Of a stretch of DNA of 51,165 bases, positions 11,804-34,296 are shown in pieces. A program made the position numbers and the translations under genes. How positions within the stretch are numbered: position 1 is the first letter of the stretch; the number at the start of each line of letters is the position of its first letter. Below the pieces are notes generated by a model, which saw only the letters and a program-made list of their open reading frames with translations, was not told the DNA's origin and ran no database searches. The stretch comes from Deltaproteobacteria bacterium. Its GTDB lineage: Bacteria > Myxococcota_A > UBA9160 > JAJDAL01. The stretch covers positions 122,815 through 173,979 of the forward strand of contig JAJDAL010000003.1 of the NCBI GenBank assembly GCA_029261875.1. Direction: 5' to 3'.

Positions 11804-11907
11804 CGCGAAACTCCGGGGGGAAGTGGAGGCGCAGAACTTCAAGGGAAGTCGGGACGCCTCCGATGAAAGAGTGATCGACCGATCCGGCGATCACTGGAGG
11901 GGATTCG

Positions 11908-13092
11908 ATGTTGGGGACGGATGGGCGAAGGCGGACTGCGGCTCGCGTTGGCGTTTTCCTGGCGTTCTGTGTGCTGTTGGCCGGCGGGTTCGGTTGGCTC
12001 CGCGCAACGCCCCAGAAAGCCGACTCGCCGGTCGAATGGCTCGAAGACCTCGACCTTGCGATGGCGCGCGCCCGCGCCGAGGACAAGCCGCTCTTTCTGT
12101 CCTTCAACGTGCGCTATCTCGCGAATCCCGGTGCAGGTCATTGCTGAGCGGGCTGGGACGCCATGCAGTTTCGCATGGCCAACAATCCGAGGCTGGCCGC
12201 CAAGGTCAATCGCGACACGATCCCGGTCGTGATCAACCTGACGGATCAGGGGTTTCCCGACGGACTCCCCGCGCTCGATTACTGGCGGGACCTCCACGCC
12301 CGCGACGTCTGGTCGCATTTCGCCTTCGCGGTTTTCTTCTTGCTCGATCCGGAGGCGGAGGAAAGTTTCGGATTCTACGGCTGCAATTGCGCCGAACACC
12401 TGCGCGTGGCGAAGTTCCGCCTCGACACAATCTATGCGGATCTCGAAGATCAGTTCGACCTCTACCTGGGTCGCTATCGGAAGGTTCGGGCATTGTCGGC
12501 GTCAGGCGAGAACGACGCCGAGGCGCGAGGGGAACTCGCCGGGGTTCGTGCGGAGCTCGCCCGTGAGCTCGAAGGTCGCCGTCAATGTGCGGACGATCGG
12601 CGTCTGTTCACCGCGCGCGTATTGTTGGGGCGCGGTCCCGCACCGTGGTCGCGCATCGTGAAAGCCCTCGAATACCCGCAACCCGGGGAAAGCGATCACC
12701 TCGAAGCCGGCGTTCGCGAGGCGGCGATCCGAACGCTCGCGGACTTCATCACCAACGACGCGCCCTTCGCCGCGGAGGCGATGGAGCACGTGGAAGCGAT
12801 CTACGAAAAACTCGATCCCGAAGAACGCCGGGCGACGATCGCCCGGGTTCGTCAACGCCAGGCCCTGCGGGGTCGGGCGTTTCAACTGACGGATCTCCCC
12901 GTACCGCATTCGCTGCGCGTCCAAGCCGCGCGCGCTTTGGCGACCATCACCCAGCAGGCTTGGGACGGGGGCGAAGAGATGTGGGTCGCACAAGTGCGCC
13001 GTTGGTGGCAGCTCCACGGCCACAACTACGCCTACGAGCCCGCGCTTGCGCCCGTCGCCGCGGCCCCTGCGATGGGGGAAGAGCTGCGATGA
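11908..13092 (+). CDS. Putative selenoprotein: membrane-anchored thioredoxin-like protein with Cys79-Sec80 (copy 1)
   Basis: Read through one in-frame TGA (12145-12147) this gene encodes 394 residues. GGAGG lies 7 nt before the ATG. Residues 14-31 form a transmembrane anchor. Residues 48-110 look like a thioredoxin_7-type strand-helix: KPLFLSFNVRYL, then Cys79-Sec80, then a helix with AMQFRMA and the strand TIPVVINLTD. A CNC motif is at 159-161. The remaining 190 residues are mostly helical and unrecognised. If TGA were a stop, the product would end one residue after the start of its active site. Evidence against decay: the second copy has TGA at the same place, homology continues on both sides, and a SECIS-like hairpin follows. 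Its stop overlaps the next start (ATGA). Redox function is inferred. Confidence 0.8.
12160..12179 (+). promoter_or_regulatory. Bacterial SECIS-like hairpin, copy 1
   Basis: Perfect 7-bp stem GCCATGC/GCATGGC with the 6-nt loop AGTTTC, starting 12 nt after the UGA at 12145-12147. The apical loop starts 19 nt after the UGA, and G is the second loop base. Known bacterial SECIS elements have a stem-loop at about this distance with a G in the first two loop positions. The same 20 nt follow the UGA of the next gene. Confidence 0.78.
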
Positions 13093-14150
13093 ATCGAGGC
13101 GCGGGCAAACGAATCTGGATTGCCGTCGCGATCGCGGGGATTCTCGGTTCCCTGACCGCGATGGCGTCGATCTTTCGTCCGGACCGGATGGTTCGGGGCG
13201 AGGAAGTTCAGTGGGAGCCGGATCTCGCGTCGGCGCTCGAGAAGGCACAGTCTCAAGGCAAGCCGGTGTTGTTGGTCTTCAACGTTCGTTACCTGGGAAA
13301 TCCGCAAGCCGACGAGTGCTGAGTGGGCTTCGAGGCCATGCAGTTTCGCATGGCAGAGGAGCCGGGGTTCGCGGCGCGCGTGAATCGCGAAGTCGTGCCC
13401 GTCATCCACAACGCTACGGACCTGGGCTTTCCCGAGGGTCTACCGGCCCTCGCGCTGTCCCAGGAAGTGTTCGAGCGAAGTCCCTGGTACCACATGACCT
13501 ATGGCTTCTTCGTCCTCATGAACAGCGACGGAACCGAAGCCTATGGGATTTCCGGCTGCCAGTGCGTCGAGCATCTCCACGGGCAGGTGTTCGTGAATCT
13601 GTTTTCCGACTTCGATCGGGCCATGGACCGCGCCCGCCGACTGAAGCAACTCGAAGTCGATTCGGGCGGAGAATCCGTACGAAACGTCGCGATGGAATCC
13701 ATTCGCGCCGAGGTGCGGGAGGAAATGCTCGACGCCGCGCAATGTGGGCTCGACGTGCGATTGATGACGGCCCGCTATCTGCTCGATTTCGGCGCGGCTC
13801 CCTGGGAACGCGTCCTGGAAGTCTTGCGCCCGCCGGCCCACGGGGCGGTGGATCCGTTGGAACCCGGCGTCCGCAGTCTCGCCGTACGCGCCTTGCGCGA
13901 ATTCATCGCCGATGACCGACCGTTCGACCCCCGGGCCGAACATCACGTCGAGGCAATCTATGCGCAGCTCGACCCTTCGGAACGAAGCAAGCTGATCGCA
14001 GATACCCGCGCCAGGCTGGGCTCCAGCATGCGGGTTTCCGACCTGCCCATCCCTCCGTCCTTGCGCCTGCGGGCGGCTCGCGCCCTCGAAGAGATCGAGG
14101 GCGGAATTCGGGGATCAGACGAAGTCGCGGCAGCCAACCCAGCCCGGTGA
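13089..14150 (+). CDS. Putative selenoprotein: membrane-anchored thioredoxin-like protein with Cys77-Sec78 (copy 2)
   Basis: Read through the in-frame TGA at 13320-13322 the gene encodes 353 residues. The ATG overlaps the stop of copy 1, with GGAAGAG upstream. Residues 8-25 are a transmembrane anchor. The thioredoxin-like part has KPVLLVFNVRYL, Cys77-Sec78, AMQFRMA and VVPVIHNATD; CQC sits at 157-159, again 79 residues after Sec. The C-terminal helical region matches copy 1 (TARYLL, VEAIYAQLDPSER) but lacks its last 40 or so residues. Copy 1 and 2 are clear paralogs that have diverged widely except around the UGA. A fragment beginning at a GTG at 13323 would have neither signal nor active site. 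Confidence 0.8.
13335..13354 (+). promoter_or_regulatory. Bacterial SECIS-like hairpin, copy 2
   Basis: The 20 nt are identical to copy 1 (stem GCCATGC/GCATGGC, loop AGTTTC) and again begin 12 nt after the UGA. The flanking bases differ between the copies, so identity stops exactly at the stem ends. This is what selection on RNA structure would leave. Confidence 0.78.
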
Positions 14151-14190: not shown

Positions 14191-15021
14191 ATGTTCAACC
14201 CGACGGGCGTCGTGATCGACGGTTTTGTCGACAAATTACAAGCCGAGTATCAGCGCAATTACGGTCAGCTCGAGCCCGGCTTCGGAGAGATCCTCGTTTG
14301 GGCTGGGCGCATGGCCCTCGAACGACTCTCCCAGACCGATGCGCTCTACCACACCGTGGAACACAGCATCAGCGTGACGCTGGTCGGTCAGGAGATCCTG
14401 CGCGGACGGCATCTCCGCGACGGCGGCGTGACACCCAGTGATTGGCTGCACTTCATCATTTCTCTCCTGTGTCACGACATCGGGTACGTGCGCGGTGTGT
14501 GCCGAGCCGACAACGGCCGCTTCTGCTCGACGGGAGTCGGGGACGCGATGATCACGCTCGCTCCGGGCGACACGGACGCCTCTCTCACGCCCTACCACGT
14601 CGATCGGGGAATCCGCTTCATCGAAGAGCGCTTCGGGGGGCACCAGGTGATCGATACGAAAATCATCTCCGCGAATATCGGCCTCACGCGCTTTCCGGTT
14701 CCCAACGAAGGCGACGGCGGGATCACGAGTGACTATCCGGGGCTGGTTCGCTCTGCGGACCTGATCGGACAGATGGCTGACCCCAGCTACCTGCGAAAAC
14801 TTCCCGCGCTGTTCCTCGAGTTCGAGGAAACCGGAACCAACGCGAAGCTGGGATACAAGTCCGCGGCGGACCTACGCAACGCGTATCCGAATTTCTTCTG
14901 GACCCAGGTGCATCCCTACATCGAAGACGGCCTTCGCTACTTGTCGGTGACCCAGGAAGGCCGCCAATGGACGGCGAATCTCTACGCCCACGTCTTCGCG
15001 ACCGAACACGAACAGGAATAG
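14191..15021 (+). CDS. HD-domain metal-dependent phosphohydrolase
   Basis: 276 residues. The metal site is YHTVEH (His54, His58) followed by LLCHDIGYV (His95, Asp96), with a later Asp in LVRSADLIGQM. This spacing matches PDEase/HD-type enzymes that cut nucleotides or cyclic nucleotides. No signal peptide or membrane span is present, so it is cytoplasmic. GGAGG lies 6 nt before the ATG. It starts 40 nt after the second selenoprotein-like gene on the same strand and may be cotranscribed with it. The substrate is unknown. Confidence 0.82.
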   Translation: MFNPTGVVIDGFVDKLQAEYQRNYGQLEPGFGEILVWAGRMALERLSQTDALYHTVEHSISVTLVGQEILRGRHLRDGGVTPSDWLHFIISLLCHDIGYVRGVCRADNGRFCSTGVGDAMITLAPGDTDASLTPYHVDRGIRFIEERFGGHQVIDTKIISANIGLTRFPVPNEGDGGITSDYPGLVRSADLIGQMADPSYLRKLPALFLEFEETGTNAKLGYKSAADLRNAYPNFFWTQVHPYIEDGLRYLSVTQEGRQWTANLYAHVFATEHEQE

Positions 15022-34053: not shown

Positions 34054-34296
34054 TCAACCCGCGCGAAAGGGTTTCGTCTCGCTTGGCACCCGCGGCGCTG
34101 GATCCATGGCCGCGCGCCGAATTTGCAGATCCGTCTCCGGGAGTCGGGCCCGGACGAGCCCCGCACGGCGTTCCCGCTCGATGGCGACCGCCTGGGAGAC
34201 CTCGCCGGCTTCCACCCAGTGGTGGCACGCAATGGGGGCGATCAACAGGAAGAGCTTTCCAATCGAGAGTCGGCGATGGTCCGGGCGGCGTGCCAT
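34054..34296 (-). CDS. Possible small protein in the gap between badI-like and aldo/keto reductase genes
   Basis: An 80-residue frame begins 31 nt after the badI-like stop and runs in the same direction. It has one moderately hydrophobic stretch (KLFLLIAPIACHHW) and a basic, Arg-rich remainder. The ribosome site before the ATG is weak. It resembles no family I know. The frame could be chance in GC-rich DNA, since other frames are open across the same 315-nt gap. Apart from this frame the gap 34012-34326 shows nothing. Confidence 0.35.
   Translation of the reverse strand: MARRPDHRRLSIGKLFLLIAPIACHHWVEAGEVSQAVAIERERRAGLVRARLPETDLQIRRAAMDPAPRVPSETKPFRAG

Follow-up and report, generated by a model that had tools for sequence, protein, structure and literature searches.

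Tandem genes with an in-frame UGA next to a conserved cysteine: a probable new family of thioredoxin-fold selenoproteins

We analysed a 51,165-nt stretch of the genome of a Deltaproteobacteria bacterium (GenBank assembly GCA_029261875.1, contig JAJDAL010000003.1, positions 122,815 to 173,979 of the forward strand), referred to below as the window, in which two tandem genes, A and B, are each interrupted by an in-frame TGA directly after a cysteine codon and probably encode selenoproteins. Coordinates are window positions; A, B and C denote three paralogs of the window genome (5.68 Mb, 94.4% complete), and D denotes a relative in another genome, G332. The features of the two genes are as follows.

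11896..11900, plus strand: GGAGG, likely ribosome-binding site of gene A, judged from the sequence
11908..13092, plus strand: gene A, a predicted 394-aa selenoprotein with an N-terminal hydrophobic helix, a thioredoxin fold at about residues 40-195 and a helical C-terminal region
12142..12144, plus strand: Cys79 codon of A, immediately 5' of the UGA and invariant in the three paralogs
12145..12147, plus strand: in-frame UGA of A, predicted selenocysteine (Sec) 80
12160..12179, plus strand: hairpin of A resembling a selenocysteine insertion sequence (SECIS), GCCATGC-AGTTTC-GCATGGC
12382..12390, plus strand: Cys159-x-Cys161 (GCxC motif) of A, kept in the three paralogs
12586..12588, plus strand: Cys227 of A, kept in the three paralogs
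13089..14150, plus strand: gene B, a predicted 353-aa selenoprotein
13317..13319, plus strand: Cys77 codon of B, immediately 5' of the UGA
13320..13322, plus strand: in-frame UGA of B, predicted Sec78
13335..13354, plus strand: SECIS-like hairpin of B, its 20 nt identical to those of A
13557..13565, plus strand: Cys157-x-Cys159 (GCxC motif) of B

Both frames contain exactly one internal TGA, their sole internal stop, and both also end in TGA; the start of B overlaps the stop of A through ATGA. A preliminary description made from the sequence had placed the two TGAs at equivalent codons with protein similarity running on across them, and this was borne out: A and B align over 306 aa with 43% identity through the TGA and no change of frame, Cys falling on Cys and UGA on UGA, and every shared stretch it had named (FNVRYL, AMQFRMA, PV..N.TD and GFP.GLPAL) was found. 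Upstream and downstream of the TGA, GC content is similar at third as well as at the other codon positions. UGA as a general sense codon can be excluded, as had been argued from the outset, because TGA terminates 7 of the 18 checked gene calls of the window, plus A and B themselves.

Paralog C was recovered by a search of the genome with an A+B profile (314 bits, E 2.1e-93). It lies on a different contig, on the minus strand of G000:C54:189391-190320, and shares 37% identity with A and 42% with B. Its only internal stop is likewise a TGA, directly after Cys at the codon equivalent to that of A and B. Cys-UGA, GCxC and one later Cys are common to the three paralogs, and B has no further Cys.

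The UGAs of A and B are followed by the SECIS-like hairpin, a feature absent from the preliminary description, whose selenoprotein reading we now find well supported. This hairpin begins 12 nt after the TGA and consists of a 7-bp stem and a 6-nt loop with G at position 2; the UGA-to-loop distance is 19 nt, and by itself the hairpin folds at -11.5 kcal/mol. The rules for bacterial SECIS elements excerpted from PMC13188914 call for a loop of 3-9 nt, a stem of 4-16 bp, a G in the first two loop positions, a spacing of 16-37 nt and a minimum free energy of at most -7.5, and the hairpins of A, B and D conform to them. Allowing up to 3 mismatches, the window contains the 20-nt hairpin word exactly two times where 0.01 occurrences are expected, which together with the same-codon TGA of C puts the observation beyond chance. 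As a background sample we took the TGA words of the window and of four further stretches of the genome (106 kb), 2179 in all on both strands: with A and B counted each time, 28 of them are followed by a stem that obeys the loop and spacing rules with at least 7 Watson-Crick pairs, and for 9 of the 2179 such a stem lies 10-14 nt after the TGA. Within residues 82-89, a stretch picked after the hairpin had been seen, the codons of conserved degenerate amino acids are identical in A, B and C in 5/5 cases, among them the less common Phe codon TTT (142 of the 716 Phe codons in the window's gene calls); the rate of identical codons in the three paralogs is 5/9 inside residues 76-95, UGA excluded, and 14/82 outside them.

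The preliminary description had proposed a search for selA, selB, selC and selD and had regarded a missing selC or selB as fatal to its reading; all four genes are present in the window genome. The tRNA-Sec encoded by selC scored 72.7 bits (cut-off 47), with ARAGORN agreeing (SeC, anticodon tca), and the protein genes scored 314.5 bits for selB (cut-off 242), 525.1 bits for selA (cut-off 268) and 333.6 bits for selD (cut-off 125). The selD frame is itself interrupted by one TGA in the stretch GGG-U-ARK (L025 2392-2394, minus strand; G000:C39:57900-58823), which fits UxxK, the motif given for Sec-containing SelD in the table of PMC13188914, so that SelD of this genome is a predicted selenoprotein. 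Its hairpin (6 bp, -6.7 kcal/mol, loop 27 nt downstream) falls short of the published energy rule by itself. From the four genes and the UGA-interrupted selD, UGA-Sec decoding is expected to work in the window genome. As a separate observation, the seryl-tRNA synthetase gene serS is found upstream of selB, in the same orientation and at a distance of about 640 nt (L023 6060-9975, G000:C27).

A thioredoxin-like fold, also part of the preliminary description, is supported by two AlphaFold models, in which the order of strands and helices is that of thioredoxin and the Cys-Sec pair lies immediately N-terminal to the helix after the first thioredoxin strand. Aligned with distant relatives, the U column falls on the first Cys of CxxC in 41 of 47 rows. 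A and B are further predicted to carry an N-terminal membrane helix or signal and are probably membrane-anchored.

Profile A1 detected the gene in 1 of 90 genomes of the class, namely the window's own, and in 1 of 377 genomes of the phylum. Three of the 90 class genomes passed E 1e-6 with profile A5, the other two (G065 and G071; L030, L032) through CHWC proteins. Profile A2 matched 108 of the 377 phylum genomes at E 0.01, with many rows stopping before the U column and thus uninformative there; among the rows from other genomes, an internal TGA occurs only in G332:C451, and TAG in two others (G082, G344). Apart from that of G332, the loci read were mostly those of CHWC/CxxC proteins (18 from other genomes besides L029, some of them translated in a wrong frame; fetched loci L028-L087, six frames). 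G332 belongs to a different class of the phylum; its gene (L029 1507-2130) codes for 207 aa and has the motif LCUVGG (Cys-UGA-Val-Gly) and an N-terminus that we read as lipoprotein-like. The hairpin after its UGA has 8 bp and a loop of 3 nt at a distance of 20 nt from the UGA, folds at -14.0 kcal/mol and is unrelated in sequence to that of A and B; the genome has a tRNA-Sec (63.1 bits; ARAGORN SeC). A comparison of the G332 group with A/B/C by hhalign gave 96.4%, E 1e-9, with Cys-UGA aligned on Cys-UGA. In the class of G332, profile A5 matched 31 of 71 genomes at E 0.001, with an internal TGA only in G332, and the subgroup's own profile found only G332 among the 377 genomes. DNA was read for four members, A, B, C and the G332 gene, and all four have UGA at the same codon; the random stops and frameshifts in relatives that would have spoken for decay were not seen among them.

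A protein search with the joint profile returned nine proteins, comprising three fragments from the window genome (two tails and one head ending at the Cys before the UGA) and six external ones of the G332 subgroup. None of these six reaches back to the U position: four start at the codon immediately downstream of it (MGGAALR or VGGAALR) and two later (MDP). One of them, P0009, matches the tail of the G332 protein exactly and has the source name Deltaproteobacteria bacterium metagenome-assembled genome (MAG); the remaining five presumably have a UGA as well. The family has been invisible so far because each recovered gene call starts after the UGA or, once, ends at it. It has at least two subgroups, A/B/C in the window genome and a divergent, shorter G332 subgroup outside it. 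The selenoprotein pair first proposed therefore stands as a tandem of A and B, within a family that is wider than a pair. Against 5.8 billion proteins, searches with A alone (7999 candidates scored) or with the A/B/C profile (7997) returned nothing but the fragment from the window genome itself. No homolog appeared in two scans of genome contigs, one pattern of the first scan having Cys at the UGA and being unable to match a UGA gene, nor in viral contigs and plasmids, and PADLOC returned nothing.

A 2026 list of 119 prokaryotic selenoprotein families and subfamilies shows CU (adjacent Cys-Sec) only in SaoL, SaoC, HgcA, MbdU, a CopZ form and KCU-star; SaoB appears there as CUxxT, none of these CU entries is classed there as thioredoxin-like, and the thioredoxin, thioredoxin-like, Trx7 and TlpA entries have UxxC, CxxU, UxC, CxU, UGC or VPGU (PMC13188914). 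The NCBIfam models of SaoL, SaoC, HgcA, MbdU and KCU-star had no listed match at E up to 10 in A, B, C or the G332 protein. Best among the Pfam matches, both below threshold and without any PDZ match, were Thioredox_DsbH (PF03190, DUF255), which matched two of the three paralogs at E up to 1 (best about 2.2e-4 to 2.5e-4), and Thioredoxin_7 (PF13899; best paralog E 8.7e-4). Both share the fold type of the model and have the first Cys of their CxxC at the U column, but they differ from the vicinal Cys-Sec proteins described here in the CxxC itself and in the C-terminal region. The Trx7/PDZ (seleno)protein NF041199 is a listed selenoprotein with a Thioredoxin_7 domain (PMC13188914, PMC9312934); by its listing it has CxxU and a PDZ domain, in contrast to CU without PDZ here, and A and B scored 13.1 and 11.7 bits against its cut-off of 300. 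Sec.1 (PF13192) is likewise thioredoxin-like with a Cys before Sec (CxU; PMC13188914) and is set apart, by its listing alone, through the one residue between Cys and Sec and a different Pfam family. The VPGUxxT thioredoxin-like family NF041383 has that active site in place of the CU[VA]G found here, and its own N-terminal part gave weak matches in B (13.5 bits), C (13.6 bits) and the G332 protein (11.7 bits) against a cut-off of 275. Mammalian thioredoxin reductase ends in Gly-Cys-Sec-Gly, an adjacent pair thought to cycle via a selenenylsulfide; there the pair sits on the flexible C-terminal tail of a flavoenzyme, whereas here it lies in a predicted thioredoxin fold. We regard this as a new selenoprotein family, a thioredoxin-like CU family being absent from the literature searched and from the table of PMC13188914.

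Downstream of B, an Npun_R2479 family HD-domain metalloprotein (14191..15021, plus strand; 425.6 bits, cut-off 400) starts after 40 nt and is possibly on the same transcript. A CHASE2 / adenylate-guanylate cyclase gene starts 18 nt after C (L021 4567-6774, minus strand), probably in one transcript with it. The G332 gene sits behind genes for an extracytoplasmic function (ECF) sigma factor, a small protein and a caspase-domain protein (L087 2994-6498, G332:C451). Since no neighbour is common to the A/B, C and G332 loci, context does not fix the substrate. Among 10 scanned neighbours of A/B and C, we recognised no gene for metal resistance or metal transport, although two metal-dependent enzymes, the HD protein and an M48 peptidase, are encoded there.

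Taken as a whole, these data make it likely (a probability of about 0.86) that the UGA of A and B is read as Sec with the help of the predicted SECIS. The products would then be two thioredoxin-fold oxidoreductases, probably anchored in the membrane, that carry Cys and Sec side by side. SelB with Sec-tRNA-Sec would decode the UGA, and Sec would act as the attacking selenolate in place of the first Cys of CxxC, the Cys before it resolving the selenenylsulfide. Onward electron transfer in the A/B/C subgroup may run through the conserved GCxC and the late Cys; candidate substrates are extracytoplasmic disulfide, peroxide or metal species.

Several results weigh against this interpretation. The C hairpin has a C-U mismatch (one base differs), which leaves 3 + 3 bp and a longest perfect stem of 3 bp, so that it departs from the SECIS rules as a perfect stem. 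Random synonymous recoding gave an equal or longer stem in 4800/20000 cases for A, 6146/20000 for B, 13319/20000 for C and 2221/20000 for D; this null is non-significant because the conserved peptide encodes the stem, recoding does not separate RNA from protein constraint, and we did not take it as support for the hairpin. Folding z-scores are mixed, at -2.0 (A), -4.2 (B), +0.3 (C) and -1.1 (D) for 51 nt and -0.4 (A), -1.3 (B) and -0.9 (C) for 43 nt, and no Rfam family reached its gathering score, weak matches below that score being confined to the vicinity of the UGAs in A and L029. Confidence in the active-site loop of the models is low, with a predicted local distance difference test (pLDDT) value below 50 for residues 71-81 of A and a mean of 50 for residues 71-80 of B, and Foldseek with the models returned no match at E 0.001. 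PF03190 and PF13899 stay below their gathering cut-offs of 27 bits (21.6 bits for A and no match for B with the former; 13.3 for A and 19.7 for B with the latter). Close homologs with Cys at the U site, a search for which had been proposed in the preliminary description, were not found in protein searches with up to 7999 candidates scored each; only distant CxxC proteins align there, and Sec/Cys alternation consequently rests on these. Finally, tRNA-Sec in both family-bearing genomes is weak evidence and no test, because 226 of the 377 phylum genomes have one.

The in-frame UGA also admits explanations without selenium. A, B and C could be decaying copies of one ancestor broken by a UGA nonsense mutation and then duplicated; one mutation could underlie the stop shared by three copies, and the gene occurs in a single genome of the class, the window's own. 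This is very improbable, however, given that copies only 37-43% identical stay open and in frame for 275-314 codons past the UGA with normal coding periodicity, that the UGA recurs at this codon in the divergent G332 gene, and that the Sec machinery is complete. The genes might instead be two-part, with the UGA as a true stop and the downstream frame translated separately as a split subunit. Possible starts do lie just past the UGA (ATG 12163 in A, GTG 13323 in B), and the public gene calls of the G332 subgroup begin there, but the predicted thioredoxin fold would be cut at its active-site helix, C has the Leu codon CTG in place of the ATG of A and B (although with GTG right after its UGA), and the conserved Cys and UGA and the hairpin would be left without reason; we give this arrangement hardly any credence. 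Read-through of UGA exists in bacteria, and a programmed read-through or suppression that inserts a standard residue (Trp or Cys, for example) would accommodate the one imperfect hairpin of the four. The complete Sec machinery with its UGA-interrupted selD, the fit of the A, B and D hairpins to SECIS rules and the position of the UGA residue at a redox-active place make it highly unlikely.

A further alternative accepts the selenoproteins and has the Cys-Sec pair bind a metal or metalloid rather than perform disulfide chemistry. Several of the CU families in the table of PMC13188914 are metal-linked by name (SaoL, HgcA, MbdU), and GCxC could supply further ligands; the predicted thioredoxin fold, on the other hand, puts the pair at the redox position, and the scanned neighbours hold no recognised metal-handling gene despite the two metal-dependent enzymes among them. 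We regard metal binding as unlikely, though not negligible.

Returning to Sec-dependent oxidoreductases, a broader picture, which we consider less likely than not, is that of envelope-anchored selenoenzymes in which a vicinal Cys-Sec pair replaces CxxC and may form an eight-membered selenenylsulfide ring, with a GCxC-relay subgroup (the tandem and operon-linked copies) and a minimal lipoprotein subgroup. The CHASE2 adenylate cyclase behind C and the HD metalloprotein behind B would then point to redox sensing by selenium with output into nucleotide signalling. Annotation routinely loses selenoproteins, their UGA being called as a stop. If the assignment is correct, it adds a selenoprotein family, and a thioredoxin fold with adjacent Cys-Sec would have an active site of a new type compared with the 119 entries of PMC13188914. 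A natural test of SelB requirements would come from comparing the two subgroups, whose hairpins have the same spacing and unrelated sequences.

Two minor observations concern the searches. The scan of the window for coding frames interrupted by a single TGA returned, besides A, one frame at 34056 (minus strand) without a hairpin; B was missed, probably because its frame is open far upstream. Composition at 34056 is coding-like on both sides of the TGA, probably reflecting unrelated adjacent frames, and the gene beside it is presumably aldo/keto reductase-like. A same-order relative (L031, G081:C24:16588-16875; profile E 6.8e-6) encodes a different thioredoxin-like protein with a GCSTC active site and a long C-terminal extension.
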